DNA of 64,000 nucleotides from positions 1-64,000 of IMG/VR virus record IMGVR_UViG_3300008113_000026. One strand, written 5' to 3'. The notes under the pieces are model-generated. The model was not told where the DNA came from. It ran no database searches and saw nothing but the letters and a program-made list of their open reading frames with translations. Both the position numbers and the translations under genes were made by a program. The DNA is from a virus. Positions within the stretch are counted from its first letter, which is position 1. The number at the start of each line of letters is the position of its first letter. Below are positions 12,410 through 48,900 of the stretch, piece by piece.

Positions 12410-12763
12410 ATGATTAAAGGACTTCAGGGCATAACAGGAGTATCAGTAGGAGCTGGCAATACCAGCTTGCCTTATGTTAATCCAAATCCCAATAACCCTA
12501 TGACAGGTATGCTACGTATTAATGGCACTGAGATGGAAGTGTTTAATGGCTCTAGCTGGCAAATACTATCCACTAGCTATGCTACTGTAGGGTTAGATCA
12601 AGAAGTGCTTGATATCATACAATGGGCACGTAAGAAGCGTGATGAAGAAAAAGAAATGTTGGTTCTTGCCCAAACTAACTCAGCTGTTAAAAATGCGTTA
12701 GATGCTGTTGAACGAGCAAAAGAACAATTAAAAATAATAAAGGATCTATCAATTGAGCACTAA
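12410..12763 (+). CDS. Small fibre-module protein, uncharacterised
   Basis: 117 residues, two bases after the clamp gene. The N-terminal half is Gly/Asn-rich and contains G-M-L-R-I-N-G-T-E-M-E-V-F-N-G-S-S-W. This resembles the G-x-L-W-y-n-t ... V-F-D-G-x-x-W module repeated in the tail-fibre genes at 30250-39235. The C-terminal half is a charged helix (about residues 65-117), probably a coiled coil. A small fibre-like protein between replication genes is odd; it may be a virion accessory protein or reuse of the module. It overlaps the next gene by 11 bases. Confidence 0.55.
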   Translation: MIKGLQGITGVSVGAGNTSLPYVNPNPNNPMTGMLRINGTEMEVFNGSSWQILSTSYATVGLDQEVLDIIQWARKKRDEEKEMLVLAQTNSAVKNALDAVERAKEQLKIIKDLSIEH

Positions 12764-14282
12764 TAGAATCAATTACACAGAAACACAACGAGACTACGCT
12801 GTTTACTTGCCAGCTATTAGTAGTTTTTATACTAAAATGGTCAGTGATACTAGGCATAATCACAAGAGTGGGGTAGTGTCAGAAAGACTGCCTAAAGGTT
12901 TTGAGCATGGGATTGAATCCATGAACTTTTTAGATGCTGAACGAGGTGCATTTACATACAAGTATGGTCTATATTCAGCAGGTCATGCGCAACTTGACTT
13001 AGATAAAACTATGCTTCGAGATGCAATGGTGCAAGAGCGAGATCGAGACAATACTATTATCTTAGGTGACTCAGGTGGTTTCCAAATTGGTAAAGGTGTT
13101 TTAAAGTTTGATTGGCAAGACTTTAAAGGTAAAGGTGCTAATAAAACTCGTGATCAGATTCTAAATTGGTTAGAGCTTACTGCTAACTGGAGTATGGTGC
13201 TCGACGTTCCCACATGGGCTAGTAATGACTTGCATCGTGACAAAACTGGATTGAATAATTTCCAAGATTGCTTAGATGCAACTATTTGGAACAACAATTA
13301 TTTTGCACAAAATCGTCTAGGCAATACAAAATTTTTAAATGTCTTACAAGGTAACAGTTTAGAAGAAGCTGACATTTGGTATGATGCAGTTAAACATTTG
13401 CCATTTGAAGGATGGGCAATGGGTTCACAAAATATGTGTAATATGCCAATTATTCTACATAGACTAATAACAATGCGTGATGAAGGCATGTTAGAAGGTA
13501 AGAACTGGATGCACTTTTTGGGCACTGCTCCTTTAGACTGGGCTTGTTATTTGACAAGCATCCAACGTGTATTGCGTAAGCATTGTAATCCTAATATGAC
13601 AATCAGTTTTGACTGTGCAAGTCCGTATATTGCAGTAGCATATGGTCTTTCATATACAGATCCAAGTTTCCGTAGAGATAAATGGTCTATTTTGATGGAA
13701 AAGGCTCCGGACAATAAAGTTTGGGCTGGTGATAATATTCCATTCCCTTGGCGTAGTGCTATCGGTGATCGTTTAACAATGGGCGATGTTTGTTATTATA
13801 AACCAGGCGACTTAAACAAGATTGGTAAAGAAGGCAAAACTAGTTGGGATAGTTTTAGTTATGGGCTATATATGGCGCATAATACTGAAGTACATATCCA
13901 AGCTGTGCAACGTGCCAACCAATTGATGGATATGGAAACAGCAAGGTATAAACCAGACTGGAGATATTGGCGCAAACTTAACGAGAGAGAAGAAAAAAGT
14001 GATAGCCCAAGCGAATGGGTTCCACGTAATATTCTATACTTTGATAGATTTGTTCAAGAATTATTTGAAAGTGATGATCCACGCACAATGCTCAAACACG
14101 CACACAATTTCTTAACTGAATTGCAAGGCGGATTACAGCGAGGAAAAACTGGCAACGATGTTAAGAATCGTGTTATCAATGCTGTGTTCGATTTTGGTGA
14201 AGATACATTCCCATCAAATGAAGAACTAACTGATATGAACGATGAAAAAATTGTTGCACTTGAAAACACTTTGGATGATTGA
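12753..14282 (+). CDS. dpdA: DpdA-like 7-deazaguanine DNA transglycosylase (TGT superfamily)
   Basis: 509 residues from a TTG start with AAAGGA 8 bases upstream. It carries the tRNA-guanine transglycosylase hallmark D106-S-G-G-F-Q, a L-D151-V-P-T-W-A segment, and F-D287-C-A-S-P-Y in the place of the TGT nucleophile motif F-D-C-V-x-P-T-R. The TGT zinc site (C-x-C-x2-C ... H) is not obvious. DpdA proteins swap guanine in DNA for a 7-deazaguanine base, and known phage cases protect DNA from restriction. QueD-like, FolE and QueE-like genes within 10 kb downstream make a DNA rather than a tRNA role likely, though a tRNA TGT cannot be excluded from sequence alone. Confidence 0.75.
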   Translation: MSTNRINYTETQRDYAVYLPAISSFYTKMVSDTRHNHKSGVVSERLPKGFEHGIESMNFLDAERGAFTYKYGLYSAGHAQLDLDKTMLRDAMVQERDRDNTIILGDSGGFQIGKGVLKFDWQDFKGKGANKTRDQILNWLELTANWSMVLDVPTWASNDLHRDKTGLNNFQDCLDATIWNNNYFAQNRLGNTKFLNVLQGNSLEEADIWYDAVKHLPFEGWAMGSQNMCNMPIILHRLITMRDEGMLEGKNWMHFLGTAPLDWACYLTSIQRVLRKHCNPNMTISFDCASPYIAVAYGLSYTDPSFRRDKWSILMEKAPDNKVWAGDNIPFPWRSAIGDRLTMGDVCYYKPGDLNKIGKEGKTSWDSFSYGLYMAHNTEVHIQAVQRANQLMDMETARYKPDWRYWRKLNEREEKSDSPSEWVPRNILYFDRFVQELFESDDPRTMLKHAHNFLTELQGGLQRGKTGNDVKNRVINAVFDFGEDTFPSNEELTDMNDEKIVALENTLDD

Positions 14283-14297
14283 TTTATCCAATTTCCA

Positions 14298-14326
14298 TTG
14301 ACTTTACCAATCGTATAGTTTATACT
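14298..14326 (+). promoter_or_regulatory. Sigma70-like promoter, possibly leaderless
   Basis: TTGACT (14298-14303), 17-base spacer, TATACT (14321-14326). A start about 7 bases downstream would fall at the ATG at 14333, and no ribosome site is visible before that ATG. Confidence 0.5.
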
Positions 14327-14332
14327 AGTTTT

Positions 14333-14845
14333 ATGCTTAACACACAAGAACGTCAAGAAGTAACATATTTTACTGGATACGAAGTTGAACATACTATTTG
14401 TCATGGTATGAAGACTTTGTTCGTAGTTGGAACTCCGCCACTCGATGATATCCTATACAAGGCAATTCAAACTGACTGTAAACATATCTACTTTGGCACA
14501 AGTCAAAGTTTTAATCCTAAATCAATTAGCCACGAAGAATATAAAGCGTGGGATGATGTTATTATTGGATGTCTAAAAGCTGACTACTGGGTAACGCTAG
14601 ACTTTGGCGTTGAACACGTCGAGGGTGTTTTAGAATCTGCTTATAATGAGTATCCTCGCTTTGTACCAATGATTAGTGTTAAACTACCTTACATTAATCA
14701 ACTCAACTACAATGCCACACTTAAACTGGATGACCGAACTTGGGGTGCTACTAATCCAGGTGTGTGGACACATCAACTACATGACCTAATGAGTAAAGAC
14801 AAGTATACTTACTGGGATCAGTACACTCAAGATACACCAACATGA
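14333..14845 (+). CDS. Conserved-type phage protein linked to deazaguanine genes
   Basis: 170 residues from ATG 14333. An alternative ATG at 14279 overlaps the dpdA stop (ATGA) and would add 18 residues that look unlike a folded start. The protein has Y-F-T-G-Y-E-V-E-H-T near the N-terminus, T-L-F-V-V-G-T, and a C-terminal I-S-V-K-L-P-Y-I ... Y-N-A-T-L-K-L-D region, a soluble alpha/beta pattern. I recall similar uncharacterised phage proteins beside QueD-type genes but cannot name a family. It is coupled to the next gene by ATGA overlap, so a role in base synthesis or use is plausible. Confidence 0.6.
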   Translation: MLNTQERQEVTYFTGYEVEHTICHGMKTLFVVGTPPLDDILYKAIQTDCKHIYFGTSQSFNPKSISHEEYKAWDDVIIGCLKADYWVTLDFGVEHVEGVLESAYNEYPRFVPMISVKLPYINQLNYNATLKLDDRTWGATNPGVWTHQLHDLMSKDKYTYWDQYTQDTPT

Positions 14846-15231
14846 TTATCCGACAAGATCAACGTCCTAACAAAATGATTTGGGTTACCTTTCGCAAAGA
14901 AGGTATTCACAAATATCCAGCCGCACTTACAGATACAGCACTTGCTACAGGTGACGAGTATGATGTAAGTTTCCTAGGATATCCGCATCGTCACATCTTC
15001 CATTTTAAAGTATGGATTGGTGTTACCCACGATGATCGCGATATTGAATTTATCCAGTTTAAACGCTGGTTGGAAAAACTGTACGCAGAAGGTACACTCC
15101 AACTAGATTACAAGAGTTGCGAGATGATGTCAGGCGATTTATATGACGCCATCTCCAATAAGTATCCTAACCGTGAGGTTTGGATTGAGGTCTCCGAAGA
15201 TGGAGAAAATGGTTCTTTTATCAAGTATTAA
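14842..15231 (+). CDS. QueD-like T-fold protein (6-carboxytetrahydropterin synthase-like)
   Basis: 129 residues, the size of QueD. The order of features fits the 6-pyruvoyl-tetrahydropterin synthase fold: F-R-K-E-G-I-H23-K for the first zinc histidine, then H49-R-H51-I-F-H-F-K-V-W-I for the H-G-H strand. Next comes D-I-E-F-I-Q-F-K-R-W-L for the D-F-x-x-L-K helix, then L-D-Y-K-S and a V-W-I-E-V-S-E end strand. QueD converts dihydroneopterin triphosphate, made by FolE, to 6-carboxytetrahydropterin. The catalytic Cys usually found before the H-G-H motif is missing, so activity may be altered. This is a pattern-level assignment. Confidence 0.5.
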   Translation: MIIRQDQRPNKMIWVTFRKEGIHKYPAALTDTALATGDEYDVSFLGYPHRHIFHFKVWIGVTHDDRDIEFIQFKRWLEKLYAEGTLQLDYKSCEMMSGDLYDAISNKYPNREVWIEVSEDGENGSFIKY

Positions 15232-15251
15232 CATTTTAAGGAAATTGTAAA

Positions 15252-15491
15252 ATGGCACAACCTGCATGGCTTAACAAATATCTAACAATGAAGCCTGAAG
15301 TAAACAAGATTTTTGATGATCTTGAAGCCTGGCACGATCATTGCCGATTGGAGCTGATTAATTTTAACCCAGCAGACTTGTACAAGTCTGATGTTTATCG
15401 CGACTGGAATCGTCGTAAAAATAGCAAGCCACGTCATTTTAAAAATGACTTTAACCGCAACAGCAACTATAAAAAGCCTTATCGTCAATGA
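15252..15491 (+). CDS. Small uncharacterised protein
   Basis: 79 residues after an AAGGAAA ribosome site. The first half is an acidic helix (V-N-K-I-F-D-D-L-E-A-W-H) with N-P-A-D-L-Y, and the last 30 residues are strongly basic (Arg, Lys, Asn, Tyr), a likely nucleic-acid-binding tail. It ends in an ATGA overlap with the glycosyltransferase gene and so is co-translated with it. Function unknown. Confidence 0.55.
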   Translation: MAQPAWLNKYLTMKPEVNKIFDDLEAWHDHCRLELINFNPADLYKSDVYRDWNRRKNSKPRHFKNDFNRNSNYKKPYRQ

Positions 15492-16579
15492 TTTACATTG
15501 TTGATTTAGAAGCAGTTGAAACAAGGTACACTGGACAGTGGAAGTCCCACGTACCTAACATTTTACGAAAGGCAGGACACAATGTTCAAATTATATCTGG
15601 CCCTACGGATATCCCTACTGCAACCACTCCTGGCGCTTTTCTTAATTTTGGTGGTACCAATATATACAAAGCTAGCCAAGTGGAGCAACTGGGCCGTTTA
15701 TTTTGTAACGGAGCCATTCATCCCGGCGATCACTTTATTTTTACTGACGCTTGGCATCCGGGCATCATCAATCTAAAGTACATGAGCGAGTTGCTGGGTA
15801 TTCCAATAACTACACACGGCTTGTGGCATGCTGGCAGTTATGATCCACAAGACTTCTTAGGACGTCTTGTTGGCGATAAGCCTTGGGTTAGGCATGCTGA
15901 GAAGAGTTTCTATCATGCGTTTGACCACAACTACTTTGCCACAGACTTTCACATTCATATGTTTTACGAAAACTTGATCCAAGCAGATCCAGATCGTAGA
16001 CAAACAATGTATAAGATTGTGATAGAAGATACAGTATTCAATAACAAGGTTGTGCGTACAGGATGGCCTATGGAGTATATGGATTCAACTTTGACCATGT
16101 ACAAAAATATGCCCAAGCGTGATCTTATTTTGTTTCCACATCGTATTGCTCCAGAGAAACAAGTTGAGATCTTCCGTGACTTAAAGGAACATTTACCGCA
16201 GTATGAATTTGTTGTATGTCAGGATCAACAACTAACAAAGAATGAGTATCATAATTTGTTAGGTGAGGCAAAGATAGTGTTTAGTGCTAACTTACAAGAA
16301 ACGCTTGGCATTAGCTGTTATGAAGGTGCAGTAGTTGATGCTATTCCTATGGTGCCAGATAGATTAAGTTATACCGAAATGTACTACGACAATTTTAAAT
16401 ATCCAAGTGAATGGACTGAAAGTTGGGATTCGTATACTGCACATCGTCCGCTGTTATGTAATAAGATTATACAATACATGGATAATTATGAAAAATTTTT
16501 ACCCAAGTTAAAGAATCAAACTATTGATTTAACCAACAACTTTTTTAGTGCAGGTAAATTAATTGAGCAACTCAAATAA
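15488..16579 (+). CDS. GT4-type (GT-B fold) glycosyltransferase
   Basis: 363 residues. The C-terminal half has the GT-B retaining-glycosyltransferase signs: L-I-L-F-P-H-R-I-A-P-E-K-Q at about 213-225, then K-I-V-F-S-A-N-L-Q before E271-x7-E279 (E-T-L-G-I-S-C-Y-E), and G-A-V-V-D-A-I-P-M-V-P. The Glu pair holds the nucleotide sugar in GT4 enzymes. The N-terminal half is the acceptor domain and has no close match that I know. It is coupled by ATGA overlap to the gene before and overlaps the one after. Being inside the deazaguanine cluster, it may glucosylate the modified base, as T4 glucosylates hydroxymethylcytosine. Host surface glycan change is the alternative. Confidence 0.65.
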   Translation: MIYIVDLEAVETRYTGQWKSHVPNILRKAGHNVQIISGPTDIPTATTPGAFLNFGGTNIYKASQVEQLGRLFCNGAIHPGDHFIFTDAWHPGIINLKYMSELLGIPITTHGLWHAGSYDPQDFLGRLVGDKPWVRHAEKSFYHAFDHNYFATDFHIHMFYENLIQADPDRRQTMYKIVIEDTVFNNKVVRTGWPMEYMDSTLTMYKNMPKRDLILFPHRIAPEKQVEIFRDLKEHLPQYEFVVCQDQQLTKNEYHNLLGEAKIVFSANLQETLGISCYEGAVVDAIPMVPDRLSYTEMYYDNFKYPSEWTESWDSYTAHRPLLCNKIIQYMDNYEKFLPKLKNQTIDLTNNFFSAGKLIEQLK

Positions 16580-17141
16580 TAGAACAATTATAGAAGAAAA
16601 TGACGTATTTAGAAAATATAATTTTTCTTCTATAATCTCTCCGCAAGATGAATCTCTTGCAAAAACAGATATCAAAACAATAATTGAAAATGGGAACTAT
16701 TTTAAAAATAGTCCAAAATTTCAAACATCTGAAAACTTGTTTTCTAGACACGAACCACATTGGTTAAAATTTAGAATGAGTTTTATTTTTAGTTGTTTCA
16801 TGCATATAGGGCGTGAAGTACAAATTAAAAATATGCAAGCGTGGAGTTTTATGACTAATAATGATATTGTTGAAGATCGTGAAGATCTTTGGCATACTCA
16901 TCATTTAACAAAACAAAATAATTCAATTTCAGGAATTTATTATTTGCATATTCCTGAAGATGCTGTTTATATGTTAAGCGGCACAGAATTTGCTCCTAAT
17001 GGAATTACCTCTCCTGAACGAGTAGTAGTTACTCCAGGAAAGCAAAGTTGGATAGTTTATCCAAGTGACCAATGGCATAGACCAATGCCTACACAAAGCA
17101 ATGGCTATAGATTTATTATAGCCGCAGATATGGAGTATTAA
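16563..17141 (+). CDS. Putative Fe(II)/2-oxoglutarate-dependent oxygenase
   Basis: 192 residues from TTG 16563, inside the end of the glycosyltransferase gene; no ATG lies near. The core W-H111-T-H113-H-L ... S-I-S-G-I-Y-Y-L, then Y-P-S-D-Q-W-H172 and a G-Y-R183-F-I-I strand, fits the phage/bacterial 2OG-Fe(II) oxygenase group with a W-x-x-H-x-H ... S-G-x-Y-Y pattern (Pfam 2OG-FeII_Oxy_5 type). The histidines would bind iron and Arg183 the 2-oxoglutarate. Such enzymes hydroxylate bases, proteins or small molecules. Its place between the glycosyltransferase and FolE suggests action on the modified base, by inference only. Confidence 0.55.
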   Translation: MSNSNNRTIIEENDVFRKYNFSSIISPQDESLAKTDIKTIIENGNYFKNSPKFQTSENLFSRHEPHWLKFRMSFIFSCFMHIGREVQIKNMQAWSFMTNNDIVEDREDLWHTHHLTKQNNSISGIYYLHIPEDAVYMLSGTEFAPNGITSPERVVVTPGKQSWIVYPSDQWHRPMPTQSNGYRFIIAADMEY

Positions 17142-17142
17142 A

Positions 17143-17445
17143 ATGAAATGGTATGACAAGTGGATCATGAATCGTGCTGAAAGAATCATGTACAAACAAA
17201 GAGAGGAAAAAGAAATGAGTTATGGTCAAGTGGCTGTTAAATCAGCAAGATTGAGTGATGGTGGCTTAGACAGCCCCGCAGTGCGTTTTAAAATGTTCAA
17301 AGCTAGCGGTGGTACTATCATTGAAACTCAAGTTTATGATGAAAGAAAAGATAGACACGTAAACGGACTGTATGTCATAACCAATGACAAAAACTTAGGT
17401 GAAGAAATTGGTAAAATTTTGACACTGGAAAGTTTGAAAGTTTGA
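17143..17445 (+). CDS. Uncharacterised 100-residue protein
   Basis: Start at 17143 has GGAG seven bases upstream. A second ATG at 17215 also has a good site (AGAGGA), so a shorter 76-residue form is possible. The first 25 residues are basic and aromatic. The rest looks like a small beta-rich domain (V-R-F-K-M-F-K-A-S-G-G-T-I-I-E-T-Q-V) ending in a helix. The folE promoter overlaps its last codons. Function unknown. Confidence 0.55.
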   Translation: MKWYDKWIMNRAERIMYKQREEKEMSYGQVAVKSARLSDGGLDSPAVRFKMFKASGGTIIETQVYDERKDRHVNGLYVITNDKNLGEEIGKILTLESLKV

Positions 17446-17471
17446 CAAATGATCCTAAATAATGTTATAAT
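17442..17471 (+). promoter_or_regulatory. Sigma70-like promoter for folE
   Basis: TTGACA (17442-17447), 18-base spacer, TATAAT (17466-17471). The spacer contains CCTAAATAAT. The gene starts 27 bases downstream after ATAGGA. Confidence 0.7.
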
Positions 17472-17497
17472 TAACTTGTTTAGTATAGGAATCGATA

Positions 17498-18247
17498 ATG
17501 ATATCAAAAAGTAATGAAACAGGATTGGACGCAATGGCTGGCGATGGTGGCTACAAAGAAGCATACCTAGGCGATCATATTCGCTTTAAAATGAAACGTG
17601 AAGGCAAACGTTTTTGGGCTGGCGACAACATTAGTGACTACTTACACGAAGGTGATATAGAAAAACTGATTGACGAAGCAACTCCGGCATTTGAACAAGT
17701 GCTCGATCGTTTGCTGATTGATCGTGAAAGCGATCCTAATTCACATGGCACAGCTCGTAGGCTTGCTAAAATGTACTTTAACGAAATAATGGCAGGACGT
17801 TATGACCCAGCACCAGATTGTACAGCATTTCCAAATGACTCGGCGGATCGTTACGAAGGTATGTTGGTTGTTCGTAGTGAGTTGCGTAGTATGTGTAGCC
17901 ATCATCACCAACCCGTTGCTGGCGTTGCTTATATTGGTATTATTGCTGCCGAGAAACTCATTGGACTCTCAAAGTACACCCGAATCGCACAGTGGTGTGC
18001 AAGACGAGGTACTCTCCAGGAGGAACTTTGTAATGACATTGCTAGGGAAATCAGCAAAGCAACAAACTCTAAAAACGTAGCAGTCTATATTCAAGCAACA
18101 CATGGTTGTTGTGAGAATCGCGGCATTATGGCACACAGTAGTCTTACACAAACTACAGTACTTACAGGATCATTTAAAACTGATCCTGGTGCAAAGAAAG
18201 AGTTCTTTGACAACATCAAATTGCAACAAGAGTTTGCTCCACGATGA
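17498..18247 (+). CDS. folE: GTP cyclohydrolase I (FolE)
   Basis: 249 residues against 222 in E. coli. The zinc and active-site residues are in place: M-C133-S-H-H136-H-Q-P for the first pair and T-H-G-C-C for the second cysteine (204 or 205). G-L-S-K-Y-T-R-I and R-G-I-M-A-H also match the family. The N-terminal 60 residues are longer than in bacterial FolE. The reaction converts GTP to 7,8-dihydroneopterin triphosphate, the first step towards 7-deazaguanine bases and folate. With QueD-like and QueE-like genes nearby, the deazaguanine route is favoured, though DHFR and ThyA also make folate supply relevant. Its stop overlaps the next start (ATGA). Confidence 0.9.
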   Translation: MISKSNETGLDAMAGDGGYKEAYLGDHIRFKMKREGKRFWAGDNISDYLHEGDIEKLIDEATPAFEQVLDRLLIDRESDPNSHGTARRLAKMYFNEIMAGRYDPAPDCTAFPNDSADRYEGMLVVRSELRSMCSHHHQPVAGVAYIGIIAAEKLIGLSKYTRIAQWCARRGTLQEELCNDIAREISKATNSKNVAVYIQATHGCCENRGIMAHSSLTQTTVLTGSFKTDPGAKKEFFDNIKLQQEFAPR

Positions 18248-18420
18248 ATTTAGACTTTGATCAGCAACACCAGTATTATTTAGAGTACAACATTAAAGCC
18301 GTAGAGTTGGGTAAAATGTGTAATCAGTATCCTGCGCTTCAAAAAGCGTGGGATCAATTTAAAACTGTTTACGAACTTTGTAAGGAAGAAAACGATGAAG
18401 ATTACCAGTCATTTCCTTAA
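18244..18420 (+). CDS. 58-residue uncharacterised protein
   Basis: A small gene starting in an ATGA overlap with the folE stop and ending 26 bases inside the cupin gene. The product is helical and Gln/Tyr-rich at the start (M-N-L-D-F-D-Q-Q-H-Q-Y-Y), with two cysteines, and acidic at the end. Coupled start, sensible composition and a filled gap support it as real. Function unknown. Confidence 0.55.
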   Translation: MNLDFDQQHQYYLEYNIKAVELGKMCNQYPALQKAWDQFKTVYELCKEENDEDYQSFP

Positions 18421-18877
18421 TTGGCTCGAATCTAAAGACCGTAAACGTGTTATTATGGACCGTACTTGCGATGAGCCTTTACTTACACGTTACTACTTGT
18501 TCTTAAAGGATCGTAAAACATTTCCGTTTAACGTATTCTTGCACAAGTTCCATAAGGGTGATCCAGGCGATGTACACGATCATCCTTGGCCGTATGCTAC
18601 ACTGATACTAGCAGGCGGTTACTATGAATACACACCTAATTTTGAATATGGCAAAATGGTTGGTGAAACTAAACATTGGCGTGGCCCTGGACATTTTAGA
18701 CTTTGTAGTGCTAACAGTTATCACCGTATTGAATTAAAAGAGGGTGTAACACCCTGGACTTTGTTTATGCCAGGCCCACAACGACAAGAATGGGGATTCT
18801 GGGTAAACAACAAATGGATACATAACAATCAATACTTAAAGGACAAGTATGAACAAGCGCATAATAACATACACTGA
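18395..18877 (+). CDS. Cupin-fold protein
   Basis: 160 residues after an AAGGAAG ribosome site. Cupin motif 1 is visible as G-D-V-H61-D-H63-P ... with L-A-G-G-Y-Y-E, and motif 2 as N-S-Y-H-R-I-E-L, giving two or three histidines for a metal. W-T-L-F-M-P-G-P near the end is the last strand. Cupins cover isomerases, dioxygenases and sugar-binding proteins, so the reaction is not given by sequence. The place beside folE, an oxygenase and a glycosyltransferase suggests nucleotide-sugar or base chemistry. It overlaps genes on both sides. Confidence 0.6.
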   Translation: MKITSHFLNWLESKDRKRVIMDRTCDEPLLTRYYLFLKDRKTFPFNVFLHKFHKGDPGDVHDHPWPYATLILAGGYYEYTPNFEYGKMVGETKHWRGPGHFRLCSANSYHRIELKEGVTPWTLFMPGPQRQEWGFWVNNKWIHNNQYLKDKYEQAHNNIH

Positions 18878-19403
18878 ATTTAAAAATTTAGTCAGCAGTC
18901 TGTGTAGACAGATAACTCTTAGTGACTGGAAACCAGATTACATTGTTGGTATTAGCAGAGGCGGTCTTTTACCAGCAGTTATGATTAGTCATTACTTGAA
19001 TGTTCCAATGCGCCCATTGCAAGTAAGTTTGCGAGATGGTGGCGAGTGTGTTAGCGACCTTGGCATGGCAGAAGATGCATACGGTTATGTCAATATAGAA
19101 GACAGAGAATTTAATGATGGTGAAACTAGTAATGTTTTATCTAGAAAAAATATATTAATAGTAGATGATATTAATGATCAAGGTAACACAGTTAATTGGA
19201 TATTAGATGATTGGCCAAGTGGATGTATGCCCAATGATAAATCTTGGGAAACTGTTTGGAACAACAATGTAAAGTTTGCTGTATTATTTGATAATCTAGC
19301 CAGTAAAGCATCTGTTAAAATGGACTTTGCAGGTGAGGAAATTAATAAAGCAGAGAATGATGTTTGGATTGAATTTCCTTACGAGGAGTGGTGGACAAAA
19401 TGA
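18849..19403 (+). CDS. Phosphoribosyltransferase family protein
   Basis: 184 residues. The PRPP-binding signature is N-I-L-I-V-D-D-I-N-D-Q-G-N-T at 101-114, and Y-I-V-G-I-S-R-G-G-L-L-P at 31-42 forms the usual N-terminal strand and loop. This is the type I (hypoxanthine/xanthine) phosphoribosyltransferase layout. These enzymes join a purine base to PRPP. A phage could use it to salvage guanine or handle a modified base. It overlaps the cupin gene by 29 bases and the HIT gene by ATGA. Confidence 0.75.
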   Translation: MNKRIITYTEFKNLVSSLCRQITLSDWKPDYIVGISRGGLLPAVMISHYLNVPMRPLQVSLRDGGECVSDLGMAEDAYGYVNIEDREFNDGETSNVLSRKNILIVDDINDQGNTVNWILDDWPSGCMPNDKSWETVWNNNVKFAVLFDNLASKASVKMDFAGEEINKAENDVWIEFPYEEWWTK

Positions 19404-20887: not shown

Positions 20888-21075
20888 AAATATCACTATT
20901 GTTTATTGTAGCCATTTTTGCTTTAGGTGCAACAATGTATTACAGTATTCCAAAAAAGGGAGATGTGATCATAATTGATTGTAGACTATCTGAAATAAGT
21001 CCAGATATTCCAATTTGGGCAAAACAAGAATGTCGTAAAAAACAATTAGAATCATTTGACAAATATCCTAAATAA
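20857..21075 (+). CDS. Single-pass membrane or secreted small protein
   Basis: 72 residues with a basic start (T-T-K-R-E-I-V-K) and one hydrophobic segment at about 10-31, then a polar region with two cysteines (D-C-R-L ... E-C-R-K-K). This fits an N-in signal anchor with the C-terminal 40 residues outside the membrane, where the cysteines could pair. The queE promoter lies in its last codons. Function unknown. Confidence 0.55.
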   Translation: MSNTTKREIVKISLLFIVAIFALGATMYYSIPKKGDVIIIDCRLSEISPDIPIWAKQECRKKQLESFDKYPK

Positions 21076-21084
21076 TAGTATAAT
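21056..21084 (+). promoter_or_regulatory. Sigma70-like promoter for queE
   Basis: TTGACA (21056-21061), 17-base spacer, TATAAT (21079-21084): both hexamers match the consensus fully. The spacer contains CCTAAATAAT. The gene starts 22 bases downstream. Confidence 0.75.
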
Positions 21085-21106
21085 AAATTATAAATTGGAA
21101 TCATAT

Positions 21107-22012
21107 ATGGAAAAAATTAGATACAGCGAAATGTTTTATAGTGTACAAGGCGAAGGTCGCTTTGTAGGAGTGCCCAGTGTTTTCTTTAGAACATTTGGTT
21201 GCAATTTTGAATGTAGAGGCTTTGGTCAGCCACGTGATAACTTTATCCCAATTGATCAAATGCCACACAACAACGATCCAAGAGCAAATCCAGATCATCC
21301 AAATGCATATAAGAGTTTTGAAGAATTACCAGTTAGTAACATTGGTTGTGATACAAGCGCCAGCTGGAGTGCAAAATACAAACATTTAGCCACTTGGGAC
21401 ACTGTAGATATCATTGCTGAAAAACTAACCGCAATGACTCCAGAAGGTAAGTGGACTTGTGATAATGGTCAAGATGTACATCTTGTTATTACAGGTGGCG
21501 AGCCATTAATGTGGCAAAAGCAAATAGCGGCTTTGCTAAAACAGCCGCAATTTAAAGATATTAAAAACGTAACATTTGAGACAAACACTACGCATGAACT
21601 AAAGCAAGACTTTATTCAAATGATGCTAGACCTTAGTTTTGGTCCTTCTAGAGATCCAAACTACTTTGTTAAATTTACATGGAGTTGCAGTCCTAAGTTA
21701 ACTAGTTCAGGTGAAGCGTGGGAAGAAGCAATTAAGCCAGAAGTTGCGGCTCAATATTACGGTCTTCCTGGTAGAAACTTTTATTTTAAATTTGTTGTAA
21801 CTGATGAACAAGATGTTTTAGAAGTTGAAAAAGCTATTGCACTTTATAAGGAAAAAGAAATATTCTGTGATGTTTATTTGATGCCTTGTGGTGCAACTCA
21901 AGAAGGACAGGCTAAGACTGCACGCCAAGTTGCAGAACTTTGTTTACAAAAAGGTTTTAAATTTAGTCCTAGATTGCATGTGGACTTGTTTGGAAACGCA
22001 TGGGGAACTTAA
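21107..22012 (+). CDS. queE: QueE-like 7-carboxy-7-deazaguanine synthase (radical SAM)
   Basis: 301 residues from ATG 21107; a frame from 21056 would begin inside the promoter. The N-terminus Y-S-E-M-F-Y-S-V-Q-G-E-G-R-F-V-G and F-R-T-F-G-C32-N-F-E-C36 match QueE. The third cluster cysteine appears to be C81 in G-C-D-T-S-A-S-W, giving C-x3-C-x44-C where the usual form is C-x3-C-x2-C. V-I-T-G-G-E-P-L is the SAM-binding GGE motif. QueE turns 6-carboxytetrahydropterin into 7-carboxy-7-deazaguanine. No QueC, which would make preQ0, is seen in the window, so the inserted base may be the carboxy form or host QueC may help. Confidence 0.85.
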   Translation: MEKIRYSEMFYSVQGEGRFVGVPSVFFRTFGCNFECRGFGQPRDNFIPIDQMPHNNDPRANPDHPNAYKSFEELPVSNIGCDTSASWSAKYKHLATWDTVDIIAEKLTAMTPEGKWTCDNGQDVHLVITGGEPLMWQKQIAALLKQPQFKDIKNVTFETNTTHELKQDFIQMMLDLSFGPSRDPNYFVKFTWSCSPKLTSSGEAWEEAIKPEVAAQYYGLPGRNFYFKFVVTDEQDVLEVEKAIALYKEKEIFCDVYLMPCGATQEGQAKTARQVAELCLQKGFKFSPRLHVDLFGNAWGT

Positions 22013-39934: not shown

Positions 39935-42900
39935 TTAAGACAGTTTGCCATAGTAATACTTATCGGGCAACTCTGCTGTGAACTCTTGCAGGAATCTAGC
40001 CTGTGGAGTCGACTCTTGTTGTATTGTAGTTGTTCCGCCAAGGGTATACCAAATTTTACCAATTTTTTGTACTACTTTGATGTCAACATTTGATATCACT
40101 GTAGAATCATCGGCCAAGTTTAGCACACTAGGATTTACCGTTAGCACATAGTTATTACCAACTTTTGTAATGGTAAAATCTGGCGCAACTATTAAATCTC
40201 CAGTTTGATTTTGGCTGTTCACTTCGTTCGAATTATGAGTAATGCTAAAATCATGTCTGATCAGCTGGTTAGTTCCTCTAACTGGTTTAGTTAGAATCTT
40301 GCCTGCCATGTAGACCGTTACTTGATCTTCAAGACCAATCGCTTCATTGAAGCTGAAATCAGTTAAAGTATAAGAAGCTACTGTGGTTACGTTTACCCAA
40401 TTACCGTTTACATATTGCTGATATCTGTTGGTAGTTTGATTAAATTTGTAATTTTCAGGAGTTTTATACGTTTTTATAGTATATCCTTCTCTGTAAGGGA
40501 TAGTTTCATTATTTCCAACGTTGAATACTTTTGTCCCAATAGGATAGCTATCAGCTACCCCTGTTCCAAGTGTTCCTCGAGTTAGATTTGTTAGTTTATT
40601 ACCAACAATAGATCTGAATTCAATTCTTTCTCCAGCAACAAAGATTGAGCTAGGTTTTGGATTATTAACATTAACCACACCAAATATACTTGTATCGCTG
40701 ACTTCAATTTCTCTATCAGTTGATAAGAGAGCCTTTGTTAAAGTCACTGTGCTGTTCTTTGATAATCTCTTAAATTGTACAGCGTTAGTCATATCTTTGA
40801 ACATTCTATAAGAAACTGCTTCGCTTGATACAATGTCACTAATGCTTGTCACAACAACCCTGTCATTGTTTCCTAAATTAAATCTGTTTGATATTTGTAT
40901 GTAGTCACGATCAACCACTTGATAATCGTAATTTGGAATTAGTGGACGGCCGTTAACATCGACCCAAACGTTATTAATGTTATAAACAGGTCTGCTAAGT
41001 TTATATTCATTCCTATTAGGATTAGTTTTGAATACTTCTCTTCTAATTAAATTCTCATCATGATTTGTATAGGTAACTACAGATACTCTTTGACCAGCTT
41101 GTATTTTAGAAGGAGATCTAAATGTTATTTGATTTCCAAAAATTACATAGTCTGAATCACGCAGTATACATACTGCAATTACATCGCCCACTTGTGCAAC
41201 TCCTGAGCTCATTGTAACTGTGTTATCAATTGTATCAAATTCGTAATCTCGTCCCACTACTATGATTTTTCCGTTCTTATATACTTCAATATCAGATATT
41301 GATAACGTTCTTGTCAAGTAAGGAATATTTTCACCTAGTCTAAATGTTTGAGAGTTTTGTGTAACTTCATAATATTCAGTTTCAGGCGGCATCATTCTTT
41401 GCGTTGGAGCAAGACCCCAATAAATTCTAGCTGTATCTTCATCAGGACGGTTAGTAATATGCGCACCCCAATATACAATATTATCAGGAGTTAATGTTGT
41501 TGTATTTGAAGTGTGTGTAACTTTACAAATATAATATTGACCACTGAAAGAAACAATGTCATTAACGTCATAAGAAGTTGTGCTTGCCCATGCTGAGAAT
41601 TCTAAGTTTGAATTAGTTTGCGTACTCGTATGTCCAATTTTACAAATATAGGAAACATTGTTGTACAAAACAGTGTCATTTATTACATAGTAGACATTTT
41701 CTTCCCAAGGACCTTTCCAGTCTTCTGTAGAAGAAGTTAGTCTAGTTACTGCTGCCATAACGTGTAATGGCGCAATGTTGCCAGGTGGCTTCGTTAGAGT
41801 ATATGTTGTATTATTATCAATTACGATTTCTTGATTATAAATTTCACTATAAGTTTTAACTGTAGATCCAAATAACAATATGTTGATCACTGTTCCTGCT
41901 GTTAAAGTAGGCGTGTTAGTGATAATAATCTTAGCACGTTTTGATCTACCTGCTACTTTTGTTAAAGAACTAGTATTTGAAATTGAAATATAATAGCTAC
42001 CAATATCTTGATAATTAACTTCTGATAATATTTCAAAAGAACTTGCGCCTGCATTTGCACTAGTCACAGTGTAACTAAATCTACTTAAAATACTATTTCC
42101 ACCAATTGTTGTCTTTTGAACTGTAAGAGCAAGTGTATTAGTGGTTGACAGCTGGTCAACTCCATATTCAGTAGTAATAATTTCAACAGTGGTTGTTCCA
42201 TTACTGTTTGCTGTTAATGTGTAATCAGTATTTTCTTTAGCAACAAAGTTACCAATTAAAACAAATATTTCTTGCCCGCTACCAATTGTATCTTGGATCA
42301 CAAATTGCATTGTAGACCCATCCATTATAAACTGTTTAGTAGAAATCAAATTACTGCCAGCACCAGGACTGTTAAACACTGTCATTGACAACGTGTCAAA
42401 AATCTCACCTTTGACTAATTCTTCTGTTGAAGGGCTGTGTTCAACAGATAAAAATTCGCCACCGTCTAGACTAATATCAGTTGCACTTAGTCCAGTTGCA
42501 GTTCTAAATCGTATTTCACCCGCATCTGAAATTGTTGAGAAATCACCGCCTGTAATATTTGTATCAAGAACGATATCATCAGTTGGTAGGTTTACTCCGT
42601 CACTTAATTCTTGACGTATTTCAATTTTTGTACCAGTAACTGGAACTTGTGGAAGAGTCAATGTACTAGTAGATCCGTTAGTTGTAATCGTATTGAACAA
42701 TGCGTCATTGTTAGTTTGATTTACAGTACCATAGTTTTCATCATCAACTCTAACGCCGTCAAAATAAACGTTAATTTTTGTTCCTAATAAAGGAGTATAC
42801 CCTAATTCATATGTAGATGTAGTTCCGTTTGAAATTACTAACAAGTCTTTGTAGCTATTGACAAACGTATCCCATCCTTGTGTGAACCAAGGTAGGCCGT

Positions 42901-45900
42901 CCCAACCTGAACTAACTGAGAAGTTAAGTCCTTGTATTTCAACTCCACCAAACTCCACACCCTTTATTAGTTGGGTGACATCTTTTCCTGGCATATTTGC
43001 AGTTGGGTAGTAACTGGTAATAATTCTATCAACTGCATTTTGTATGTTAATATTTTTAGCATACTGAACTGTAATTGTTGATCCCGGAGTTGGTATGTTT
43101 TTAAAGTTAATGTATCCAACATACTTTGTAAATCCAGTTTCAACAACTTGTCTTAGTTGAATCAAATAGTCGCTAGTTATGATTTCTGAACCAGTATTGG
43201 TACTTGAATTTAATTCACGTACAATGATTTTATCAGTATCTAACTCTGGAGGGAAAGTTAATTTGAACGTGTCAGTATAGCTTTCTCCAGAAGATTGAGT
43301 AAACGTATCAACAGTATACAATGTGTTTTTAATATATTGTATTCTTAAATTCTGTCTTGCAGGCAGTGCAAGATTAAATGTAATCACTGTTGACAAATCA
43401 TTTCTAAAAGTTATTCTGTAATTATCAGCACTAATTTCTGCATCATTTAAAAACAACTTAATAGTTGATTCATCCTGTAATGCAGGATAGTTTGTGTCTG
43501 TACTAGTAGATGGATAAGCCAATACATAATTTAATGTTATTCCATCTGTGTCAAGATTTCTGTTAAGAATTTCCCCAGTGTATAGACCTTTATCTGAAGT
43601 TCTATCAAACTTCATCTGTATTTGATTAGTTCTTACCTTGCTGTTTGATAACACAGCATACGCAGAACCATTTACAAAATTTGTTAAGTAGTTTGATCCG
43701 CCAGTTAAAATAACTCTAGGAGTTGTTAAATATCCGCTTCCAGGATTTGTAACAATGATGCTTGATAGTTTTCCATTACTAATTTTAGCAATTGCTGTAG
43801 CACCAGTACCAGTGTCGCCACTAACAGGCACAATTGTAACTATTGGAGGAGTTATATAATTTTCTCCAGCCAATCCAACTCTAATATCTGATACAGTAAA
43901 TCCATAATTTTCACCCCAGTGCTTGTATGGATAAACATTGTTAATCATAGAGCTAGTTGGCAATTTAATCTTACCAGTTACACTATCAACATACGCAGGC
44001 AAATCAAAATCAGTTACGCCTACACCCATCTTTTCAGTAGTGTTATAGCTAACTGTTGATTCTCTAAATTTAGATTTATATGGTTTAATTTCTTTAATAA
44101 AATCTTCAACGTAGCTGAAGTCATTAAAACGATAAACATCATCTTGATCTAGTGTGCCGGCATCCACAAGAGGTGTAATAAAACTAGTCTTGTATACCCA
44201 ATCTACAAACAACTGCTCACTTAAAACATGTCTTACAGCAACAAATACAAACTTTTTCCAATAGGACGCTAGGTCACCTGTAAAAATATTGTCTTTAATT
44301 GCATTCAAAATAATACGTAATTCAGTAGTATTTGTTTCATCAAATCCACCTTGGTCATATCTAGTTACGTTGTCAAATCCAAGTCCGGCAGCGGCCTTAT
44401 CATACAACTTGTTGTTAAATTGTACAGTTCCGTTTTCTCTAAACACTAGATCATAGTCATCAAGATAATTGCCAATACCTGGTGCTGTCTTACGTAGAAT
44501 AATTTTTCTACCGTCTCCTGGTGTTCTAATTTCAACTGTTGACCCTGTTTCAAAAATAAACGATTCTAAATCTGAAATAAAATTAATTGCGTATGTGGCA
44601 GGAACATCAACTGCATAAGAGGGATCAACCCAATCAATATAACTCCAGTATTTGGGTACATTAACTGTTTGCGTAGACTCTCTAACAAATGCTTTGTTTT
44701 TGTATTGATAGATTGCCCACTTGTCAATTTCTGTATCAAGTATAGTTAATACTGCGTATGGTCGAGCTATTAATTTTGGTATTTGAGTATATCCATAACC
44801 TTGATTTACAATTCTAACAGAAACAACACGGCCATTTAAGTCAATAGCAGTTTGTATTGTTGCTCCTTGCCCATCACCATAAATTCTAACTGTAGGGGCA
44901 ACTTTATAACCATTACCAGGGTCGTCAATGTTTACGCTAACAATCCTACCGTTGATTACTTCAGCACTTAATTTAGTTTGTGCTTTTCCGTTGGTGCCTA
45001 TCAGTGATATTTCATCACTTAATTCAATGACTTCATCATAATGTCCTAAACTAATAGACGGGTAATCTTCAACTTCTTCTAAACTGGTTATATTAGACTT
45101 GCCAACAATATCATGTTTACGTAACACTTCATTGACATACTCAATCATAATTTTTAATGCCAAGTCTCTATCTTTAAACCAAGACTGTCTTGGTCTATAT
45201 GAAGTACCGTAACGTAATTTTGGAGACAATGTTGGATCAGGTACTGGATTTCCAGCAACATCTTGACCAACAAGACTATCAATAAGTTTATTTTCAATGC
45301 TAGGATCTAAATTTAAATAGGTAACATTTTCATTCACTAGCTGCCAATGACTGTGACGATTAATTTCTTTTTCAGATGTTTGATAGTACACATCAATATT
45401 AATTTTATCACCATTCAAAGACTTTTTAGCATTGGTTAAACTCAGTGAGTTTGTTGCTAAGAAGCTAGCAAATTTAATACCTTGACCTTTAGGATCCTCA
45501 ATTATTCTTGCACAATCAAAAGAACTTAAATTTCTAAATGCTAAATCTGGAAGAGTAATTTTGTTTCTGACCCAAAAGTAATAAACGTTAACAAAGTCAT
45601 TGACAACAGGATCATAGTATTGATTAATTGAAAGGACCGTATTATCTGGATTTAGTGGCTGACCACTTACTCCTAATGCTAATCCATCAGTGGTGTCAGC
45701 TAACTGTGCCCACTCGCTTGGTCTAAAATCACTCTTAACCCATTCGTATACATCAACAGTTGATCCTGGGAACAACTTGCCCCAGTTGTTTGCTCTAAAC
45801 TCATTATTTCCTTGTTCATACCAAACAAATCTTAAGGTGCTAGTATCAAGCCAAACCTCACCAACATGGTCGTCTAACCAAGTTGTTTTATTATCAACTC

Positions 45901-48900
45901 TTACTTTTGCTGAAGTTTCTAATGCAACAGTATAAACTGCTGGGTCGAATGGTTGAATGTATTTGATTTCATTCAATACCTTAGATGGCAACTTACCTTT
46001 TATTGGATCGTAAATTTCGTAATGATCAATAATTTCTAATGTACTGTTGTTATAGCTGATAACTTTTTTAATTTTATCAACATCAATTATTGCTTCCTGC
46101 ACTCTAACTTTTGACCATGACCAAGAAGAGCCGCAGCCACATGCCTGATCTATATCACGCTTTTTGTCAAAAATTACAACCGTTCCAGAATCTGTATATG
46201 TTGTCAACTGATTAGAATCTTCTAAAGTTCCAATAACTTTTAAATCATATTTTGGTGCGCCAACAAGCATGAACTCACCGTCTGTTGCAATTCCAGTACC
46301 ATATCCGTCAAAGGACGCACTGTCGCCACTAATTAACGATTCACCAAAAACATATTTGTTTCCTAATTTTTGATACAAATAAACTGCTCCACTAGATTGT
46401 GCTTTGCTTACAAATCTAGTGCTGCCAGTATCAAATGTTGTTCTTAAGGGCGCAGCCGCAGATGTTGGGTTCAATACATATTCTGATCCATATCTTTGTG
46501 CAGAGTCAGTATATCGTTCAGTGTAAGTGTCAAATGCAACAGGTGTTGCTTGACCACCGCCAATAGCAGTGACTAATAATGTTTTACCGTCATCACTTAA
46601 CGCTAGATTACTTCCAAATAGTTCGCCTGTTTCAGTTGCTGGTGAAGTAATTTTTTGATCCAAGGCGTATGAAGCGTTTGTTTGTAATTTTAATACATAG
46701 ACCAAACCTGCATCTAATTTCTCTGTAGAAGAATGATCGCTAGATATTAGTAGTGCTGTGCCATCTGCTGACATAGCTAGTTTGTCACCAAATCTATCGT
46801 TTCTAATTGTACCTTGACCTGTGATAGTAATAGTTGTTGTAGCAGTTTCGTCTGTTAGTGAACGCAATGGTTTAAATGCCATACGTAATACACTCAATTC
46901 ACTGATTACAAATTCTCCACTATTACCTGCATTTGTTGATCCAGCAATAATAACAGATTGTCCAATTCTAAAACCATCTGCAATAAAACTTCCATTGTTT
47001 CTAACTATTGAATTATCTGATGCTTGGAATGAAATAATTTGCGCAATAGTGTTGTAGGATTTTATTACCCCTTTTAACAACAAGTCATTTGATTCTAAAT
47101 AGTCATCTGCATATATTGTTTGTGTTAATTGATAGCTGTAAGAACCTGGATCTTTTCTAAAAATAAACACTGCACCTGAGTGAACTTGTGTTCTATCTTT
47201 TAAGTGTCCAGGTGCTGATACTGCCAACACTGTTCCATTTTTATTAGATACAATGTCACTACCAAAGTTAGACTTTGAATTTACATCAGTGACTGCAGAG
47301 CGTAGATTGTATGGATTTCCGCCAACAGTATACACTTGCCACACATTGCTACTGTCCAAATAATAAACAAATATTGCGCCAATGCCGCCATCTTGTCCTG
47401 GTGATGATACCAATAAGGTTGGTTTGTCAGATCCTACAAATTTTACTTTGTGACCAAAGTTTGCACCTTCTTGTGCTATAGGACTAGCTAAAACAACTTC
47501 AGTTCTATACTCATCAAGATCATTATTAAATTTAACAATCTTAATTGCACCCTCGTCAAACAACTCGGACGAAGACTTATTAAAGTCTAAAACTTTTTTA
47601 ATTGGATCTAATGCCTGACCTAAAACTTTCCATTTTGCATTAGAAGAATTTGGAGCTCCTGAAACAATATATCGTATAGTAAGAGATGTATTTTCCCAGC
47701 AATCTAAACTTGCCCCGTGGAGTCTTTGTATTTCTGGTATTGCAACTCCATTTTTTACATCTTGTATAGTTAATATATCACTGAAGTTTTCTTCTAACAA
47801 ATAGCTTTGATGTAAGATAACATCTTCAGATCCAAGTGCGTTTCTTTCATATACATACACTCTGCCACGTTCTAATTCTGTAGCAGAAACAATAATATTT
47901 TTAGACACTGGAGCAATTATTGTAGTATTACCAAATTTTTGTCCAGACTGATTAATTCTTGGTCGTATTGGTAATGCTTTTGTGTTTGCTTCTTTTTCTA
48001 AAACTGCCCATGTGCCGTCACCAACATTATCAACCCAAACAAACTCGCAATTTTGCCATCTTGCAAGTCCTGGAATAGATGCTAAATCATCTAGGTTAGC
48101 AAATCTTGATGAAGCAAAATAATACATTGACCCGTTTAGTATTTCACCAGCAGTTGGTATATCGTTAAATGCTGTTTTGACTACAAATGTTGTTCCATCA
48201 GGAATACCTAATACTTCGTAAACACCATTTAGTGGATCATCTAGTCTAGAAATTGATACAAAATCACGCAATTTTAGTTTATGCGCAACGTCAGTATTAA
48301 AACTGATTAAATTATTTGCGTTATCAACTGTATAATTAATAATTGTCACAGGGGACAGCGTGTATCTTTTAACTCCCCAATTTCCTGAATTATCAATTGC
48401 TAACCAAACAGTATCACCTTCTCTCAAAGAAGCAGAAGAAGACAATGTTAGTATGTTGTTTTCATATAATCCAGTGAATACAACATCATCTAATCTTACA
48501 TAGCCCGCAGTTGGTATTTTTTGATATTGGCTGTATCCATTACCATTAACTGGAGATACATCAAGAGTTGGCCAAGGTTGTCCATTATAATCAGCTGGAC
48601 GAATCTGCATATCAGATAATGAAACTTTGTATGCTTTATCTAAAGATGACTTTAGATTGTTATATTCAAATTCAAAGATTTGAGGATCTTGATTAATTTT
48701 ATTTTGGTCTAGAGTAAATTCTATTTCTTCATAAGAATTTTCTCCACCAAATGTTCCTAATCTAATAGCCCACTCTTCTTGTAAACTAATATGTGCGCCT
48801 GTTGCAGTATTATTAGCAACTGCAAACTTCTCTAATGGAAGTGTAGTTCCTTTTTCTCTAATAAATCCTTGATAAAATTTATACTGACTTGACTCGTCAG

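Follow-up and report, generated by a model that had tools for sequence, protein, structure and literature searches.

This locus raises the question of whether a glycosyltransferase gene lying inside a phage deazaguanine cluster serves to put a sugar on the modified base. The window, that is, the whole stretch of 64,000 nucleotides analysed here, is part of a 79-kb IMG/VR record of a large lake virus; a 214,617-bp contig (L008) carries the same genes at 99-100% identity. An earlier note on the window had proposed from gene order that a glycosyltransferase (GT) and an oxygenase-like protein (OX) might give a deazaguanine a sugar or a hydroxyl. Our analysis indicates that the cluster probably makes a sugar-decorated 7-deazaguanine in phage DNA, by UDP-sugar glycosylation through GT, with OX in an accessory role.

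The gene cluster and its enzymes

From 12753 to 18247 the genes are co-directional, with gaps that are mostly short or replaced by overlaps. GT and OX are part of a compact operon that also encodes a DpdA-like transglycosylase, the small QueD paralogue and FolE/QueE. The features are as follows.

12753-14282, plus strand: DpdA-like (TGT-superfamily) predicted base-exchange enzyme, 509 aa, from TGT-type motifs and an hhalign match to DpdA2
14333-14845, plus strand: p188, conserved protein, noted for its recurrence at GT loci
14842-15231, plus strand: small QueD (PTPS-type) paralogue, 129 aa, candidate DpdL (7-carboxy-7-deazaguanine, or CDG, decarboxylase), phrog_17812 E 2e-31
15252-15491, plus strand: p79, small, with a basic C-terminus and a stop overlapping the GT start, recurrent upstream of GT
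15488-16579, plus strand: GT, putative GT-B (GT4-like) glycosyltransferase, 363 aa, ATG start, from structure, catalytic positions and linkage
16563-17141, plus strand: OX, putative Fe(II)/2OG oxygenase (PF13759-like), 192 aa, TTG start, accessory, weak profile scores
17498-18247, plus strand: FolE, GTP cyclohydrolase I, PF01227 E 5.6e-39
18395-18877, plus strand: small cupin-like protein labelled 'cysteine dioxygenase', phrog_4786 E 2.4e-34
18849-19403, plus strand: xanthine/guanine phosphoribosyltransferase-like protein, NCBIfam PRK09177 E 1.1e-8, under its cut-off
21056-22012, plus strand: QueE-like radical SAM enzyme (CDG synthase), phrog_2076 E 5.8e-57

A 100-aa ORF sits between OX and FolE. 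On the minus strand, 39935-54178 is a single ORF of 4747 aa.

The coordinates given earlier for the GT and OX ORFs are exact, and so is their translational coupling: the two overlap by 17 nt, and the GT start codon (ATG, 15488) shares bases with the TGA that ends the 79-aa ORF before it. The pair does lie between the DpdA/QueD-like genes and folE as described, although 'QueD-like' does not hold as an identity. As the QueD of the pathway, 14842-15231 was rejected, being a divergent paralogue, with a genuine PTPS-family QueD encoded elsewhere in the near-identical 214-kb relative. The paralogue aligns with phage QueD by hhalign at E 1.5e-4 (prob 52) over 44 columns only. Its invariant residues are H23, H49, H51, C93, E94 and E119, a set of His plus Cys-Glu like that of a PTPS-type protein. 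In Vibrio phage Bakedbeans (L090:7212-8363) and Chryseobacterium phage MA9V-3 (L095:7395-8276) the 129-aa domain follows an unrelated N-terminal region in a fusion protein.

DpdA belongs to the TGT superfamily, and the DpdA2 family was defined in, and tied to DNA modification of, phage nt-1 (PMC6884629). The window's DpdA-like family keeps D106-SGG-Q, D151, H254-x-LG and D287 invariant, including both catalytic Asp residues (D106 and D287), and matches the DpdA2 family by hhalign (prob 93.4, E 2.5e-7). By these sequence comparisons it is a separate branch, related to DpdA2 and predicted to perform base exchange. The QueE-like protein conserves C49, C53 and C98; the third Cys is shifted by an insertion of ~40 residues relative to usual radical-SAM spacing.

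The p188 ORF may start at TTG 14279, while homologue starts cluster near ATG 14333. Its model (pLDDT 84.7) is compact alpha/beta, with no confident PDB match, and gives a faint hint of a QueE-like half barrel in which the Fe-S cysteines are missing. A kinship with QueE is tentative at most: VIA-align gives Z 6.3 across 130 residues, while the hhalign probability is 0.3. Profile searches of the PDB, run with alignments of DpdA, the QueD paralogue, the cupin, the oxygenase and p188, returned nothing significant.

For GT, the scans of Pfam, PHROG and NCBIfam yielded no usable family and no Pfam glycosyltransferase hit over cut-off, so that the 'GT4' label rests on fold and motif. An AlphaFold2 model built with 44 sequences (pLDDT 83.8, pTM 0.82) superposes over its whole length on solved retaining GT-B enzymes, and the structural match list is filled by GT4 enzymes: sucrose-phosphate synthase 6kih_A (VIA-align Z 25.7, 3.1 A over 316 residues), BshA 3mbo_D (Z 24.5, 2.6 A over 296 residues) and MshA 3c4q_B (Z 24.2, 3.4 A over 315 residues). 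Invariant across 44 homologues are G274, R219 and K224 as the presumed donor-phosphate residues, and E271 and E279, which bear out the E271-x7-E279 motif reported before. A 388-aa homologue in cyanophage BUCT-ZZ01 scores over cut-off for PF13692 and PF00534 and has D in place of the first Glu of E-x7-E. An N-terminal ExxExRYT is common to the GTs, including the X1 and BUCT-ZZ01 homologues, and reads LExxExRYT in the deazaguanine-linked family. Judged from model and motifs, GT is an active-looking GT-B, GT4-like enzyme, predicted to be active and retaining.

Linkage across phages and bacteria

GT relatives occur in 19 of 50,697 GenBank phage records and the 129-aa QueD paralogue in 26; the two are found together in 15, against ~0.01 expected by chance, and several phages have the paralogue without this GT. 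Megablast against GenBank phages found no close relative, and a scan seeded with ACP17 alone recovered only ACP17 itself. Cultured phages bearing GT include Paride, PA5oct, ACP17 and BUCT-ZZ01. Gene order varies among GT phages: DpdA then GT with a 1-nt overlap in Paride; the 129-aa gene then GT in Phosso; DpdA2 then GT in ACP17; GT then DpdA2 in X1; and FolE, QueD, QueE, a GT-like gene, DpdA2, the 129-aa gene and a GT homologue (23% identity) in BUCT-ZZ01. In X1 and ACP17, and likewise in the BUCT-ZZ01 cluster, GT thus recurs beside a different DpdA family, the DpdA2 of nt-1/KVP40; the ACP17 DpdA is homologous to a protein of these two Vibrio phages.

Three IMG/VR scans with different seeds supplied 240 loci (set A, L008-L087; set B, L106-L185; set C, L186-L265), whose GTs range down to ~24% identity. 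Confirmed GT relatives per scan numbered from at least 263 to at least 596 among the matches listed (600 each), so that the family is common there. Loci in which GT has flanks of 5 kb or more in both directions (34 in A, 44 in B and 56 in C, 134 in total) contain the QueD paralogue in 34/34, 44/44 and 55/56 cases (133 of 134), DpdA in 34/34, 40/44 and 55/56 (129 of 134), FolE in 31/34, 40/44 and 49/56, and p188 in 34/34, 37/44 and 47/56. Relatedness inflates these counts: single linkage at 70% leaves 29 GT clusters, 28 of them with the QueD paralogue, and at 60% only seven, so the loci are far from independent. That GT is better conserved than DpdA in set A is not evidence, because loci were chosen by GT similarity. 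The case for a link to deazaguanine genes is much stronger than the single gene order from which it had been read: in phages that diverge widely, and with different DpdA families, GT keeps near-constant company with DpdA and the QueD paralogue.

Other neighbours recur as well. p79 precedes GT at almost every set-A locus and is seen in sets A, B and C. The phrog_4786 protein is present in 69 of 80 set-A loci and directly follows GT in 12 of 71, and the family also occurs in many phages without GT; members of this 'cysteine dioxygenase' cupin-like family are found in BcepNazgul, MiCath, and Mycobacterium and Gordonia phages. Each of the three samples has homologues of the phosphoribosyltransferase no more than 5 kb from GT. 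A GMP reductase is encoded at 15 set-C loci.

The gene directly after GT is often one of sugar supply. In set C it is GalE at 64 of 76 loci, with a median gap of -4 nt (a 4-nt overlap); the representative is a TIGR01179 equivalog at 321.5 bits against a cut-off of 262.3. The position holds a short (265-aa) UDPG_MGDP_dh-family gene at 11 of 71 loci in set A, and GalE (8/68) or a DegT-family gene (7/68) in set B; single loci have an SDR epimerase (L110) or a PF13759 oxygenase (L014, E 1.3e-20). Upstream of GT, Gfo/Idh-type and ADH-type oxidoreductases occur at 19 set-A and 16-18 set-B loci. The slot after GT is probably exchangeable between GalE, UDP-glucose-dehydrogenase-like, DegT aminotransferase, SDR and 2OG oxygenase genes, and would set the sugar or its tailoring.

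In the window this slot is filled by OX, for which the likeness to Fe(II)/2OG oxygenases claimed earlier stands but is weak: PF13759 scores E 1.3e-4 and 22.8 bits, under the cut-off of 27, phrog_81 scores E 1.1e-5, and the HxH...H...R positions (putative Fe/2OG ligands) are conserved in seven homologues. OX adjoins GT only in L008, the window's virus, and its close relative L010; similar genes lie kilobases from GT in seven other set-A loci, often near QueE, and none was found in the 160 loci of sets B and C. GT therefore needs no OX. By its sequence OX is a probable Fe(II)/2OG oxygenase acting as an accessory tailoring enzyme outside the core, and is unlikely to be an obligate partner of GT. 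The genome of the window's own virus was tested for sugar-nucleotide genes, and neither an epimerase nor a UDP-glucose dehydrogenase nor a sugar nucleotidyltransferase was found; its sugar donor would then be host-derived.

Further cases come from bacteria and a distant phage. In a bacterial collection of 84,980 genomes there are nine GT loci, six with DpdA within 6 kb. The remaining three are L273, which combines FolE/QueD/QueE with the 129-aa gene, L270, where FolE is encoded, and the short fragment L274. On Devosia (L269:4081-7041) and Azospirillum (L271:5490-8691) scaffolds the order is Vut_1-GT-DpdA, with the Vut_1-family gene directly 5' of GT, DpdA nearby, an integrase or resolvase in the region and the biosynthesis genes absent; the Vut_1 score is over cut-off in Azospirillum and just under it in Devosia. 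The Vut_1 family contains queuosine-precursor transporters, and these loci are possibly salvage-type bacterial or prophage DNA modification systems. Xanthomonas phage PhiXhv-12 has a distantly related GT (25%) that comes after a Gat-QueC and a PIG-L deacetylase and before a Gfo/Idh gene; the Gat-QueC (L005:7669-9192; PF06508 E 2.3e-49 plus GATase_7) is annotated as glucosamine-fructose-6-phosphate aminotransferase. The region, which also has a Leu/Phe-tRNA transferase-family gene and a GNAT protein, is possibly a separate hypermodification operon.

Probable modified base and sugar, and rival acceptors

FolE and QueE are encoded in the window, and the PTPS-family QueD in the near-identical 214-kb relative. 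Eight GT-bearing genomes, four of them (G001-G004) maybe incomplete, gave no PF06508 match over cut-off for QueC, with positive controls, and QueD is present in all eight. The known path should hence end at CDG, not preQ0, and the modified base is probably CDG or 7-deazaguanine. Cui et al. (2023, NAR) reportedly predicted a DpdL that decarboxylates CDG, in dDG/dCDG systems. The 129-aa paralogue is, we presume, probably DpdL.

Linkage, sugar-supply coupling, the independent cases, the absence of QueC and the active-looking GT-B fold together argue for GT as a deazaguanine decorator. FolE, QueD and QueE would convert GTP to CDG, and the 129-aa paralogue would then probably act on CDG, perhaps decarboxylating it to 7-deazaguanine. 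DpdA would swap DNA guanine for the deazaguanine base, and the phosphoribosyltransferase at 18849-19403 may recycle the guanine so expelled. GT would move a sugar from a nucleotide-sugar, most likely a UDP-hexose, onto the deazaguanine, probably in DNA, and the likely purpose would be evasion of host nucleases. Gene content, linkage, fold, motif conservation and QueC absence were observed directly; from them we infer the chemistry at every step past CDG, which atom accepts which sugar, that the substrate is DNA and not the free base, and what the modification is for.

The main difficulty is chemical. A CDG that keeps its carboxyl has a possible sugar acceptor there, whereas 7-deazaguanine with H at C7 offers no obvious O or N at that position; either the decarboxylation idea is wrong, or the sugar goes to N2 or O6, or C7 itself is C-glycosylated. 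A bolder version, with a minor chance of being right, has the paralogue decarboxylating CDG and GT C-glycosylating C7 in DNA, with galactosyl, uronosyl, amino-sugar or oxidised variants set by the next gene and mobile, salvage-type forms in bacteria.

The usual acceptors of GT4 enzymes are of the LPS, capsule or teichoic acid type, and GalE and UGD are also used in polysaccharide pathways. GT could accordingly be a modifier of host or phage surface glycans that entered the cluster by chance or co-regulation; a jumbo-phage survey that reports a deazaguanine system in PA5oct discusses GTs solely as surface-polysaccharide enzymes (PMC7824862). That GT stays with DpdA and the QueD paralogue in phages unrelated to one another, across varied DpdA families and gene orders, makes this distinctly improbable, as do the bacterial hits, where DpdA or, at two more loci, other deazaguanine genes accompany GT. 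Action on the free base or on tRNA instead of DNA would suit the membership of DpdA in the TGT superfamily, a gene order that also fits base-level modification before insertion, and the precedent of queuosine glycosylation in animal tRNA. We consider it unlikely, since the pathway has no QueC, the window has no tRNA genes, and DpdA2, the family next to GT in ACP17 and X1, is linked in nt-1 to modification of DNA (PMC6884629).

Two further readings we hold to be very improbable. 5-Hydroxymethylpyrimidine is the classical acceptor of phage DNA glucosyltransferases, and a thymidylate-synthase-family (PF00303) gene is present in G001-G004, Paride and Phosso; the hits in G001-G004 and Phosso (349-419 bits) are, however, such as would be expected of ordinary ThyA, and GT tracks DpdA and the QueD paralogue. 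T4-type glucosylation of hydroxymethylcytosine was rejected as the general case, ACP17, X1 and BUCT-ZZ01 carrying GT without a PF00303 gene. OX might alternatively be the key enzyme, hydroxylating the deazaguanine or making the acceptor hydroxyl for GT, with which it would form a fixed pair. Their overlap in the window, the scattered OX-like genes of set A and, in L014, a different PF13759 oxygenase following GT, to which ORFs of L060, L062 and L078 are related, are in its favour, and the rarity of GT-adjacent OX and its absence from sets B and C weigh against it. Of the roles first proposed for GT and OX, then, the GT half is upheld by linkage, sugar-nucleotide coupling and the Gat-QueC and Vut_1 cases, and OX is dropped from the core.

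Comparison with known systems

Sugars on phage DNA are known from hydroxymethylated pyrimidines. If the preferred reading of GT as a deazaguanine decorator is true, a sugar carried by a purine analogue would amount to a DNA hypermodification of a new class, and new anti-restriction properties, type IV restriction targets and DNA-active glycosyltransferases would be predicted. A literature search, which missed the DpdL work, found no report of a sugar on DNA deazaguanine or of a glycosyltransferase tied to it, and the Paride paper does not mention deazaguanine (PMC10761892); we provisionally regard the modification as new.

The phage deazaguanine systems of 9g, CAjan and nt-1 likewise combine FolE, QueD and QueE with a DpdA-superfamily enzyme (PMC6884629). 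They also have QueC, whereas the GT phages tested do not, and add the QueD paralogue, p188, GT and often sugar-nucleotide enzymes; ACP17, X1 and BUCT-ZZ01 share a homologous DpdA2 with nt-1. Among dDG/dCDG systems, Cellulophaga phage phiST has the 129-aa family beside FolE, QueD and QueE; phiST, Ahp1, D479 and RHph_I1_18 are without this GT and have their own, mutually related TGT-like protein nearby.

The T-even glucosyltransferases that act on 5-hydroxymethylcytosine resemble the present proposal in that a nucleotide-sugar enzyme arms a non-canonical base against restriction. Here the proposed acceptor is a deazaguanine from base exchange, and the enzyme is GT4-like (BshA/MshA/sucrose-phosphate synthase) and tracks DpdA, not dCMP hydroxymethylase. 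Glycosylated queuosine (mannosyl- and galactosyl-Q) occurs in tRNA, with the sugar on the cyclopentenediol; it too bears a sugar on a 7-deazaguanine nucleoside, but the Q side chain needs preQ0, and QueC was not found in the eight genomes. BshA and MshA, finally, are among the best structural matches to GT yet share only ~10-12% identity with it, and the N-terminal LExxExRYT is conserved in the deazaguanine-linked family by contrast with them.
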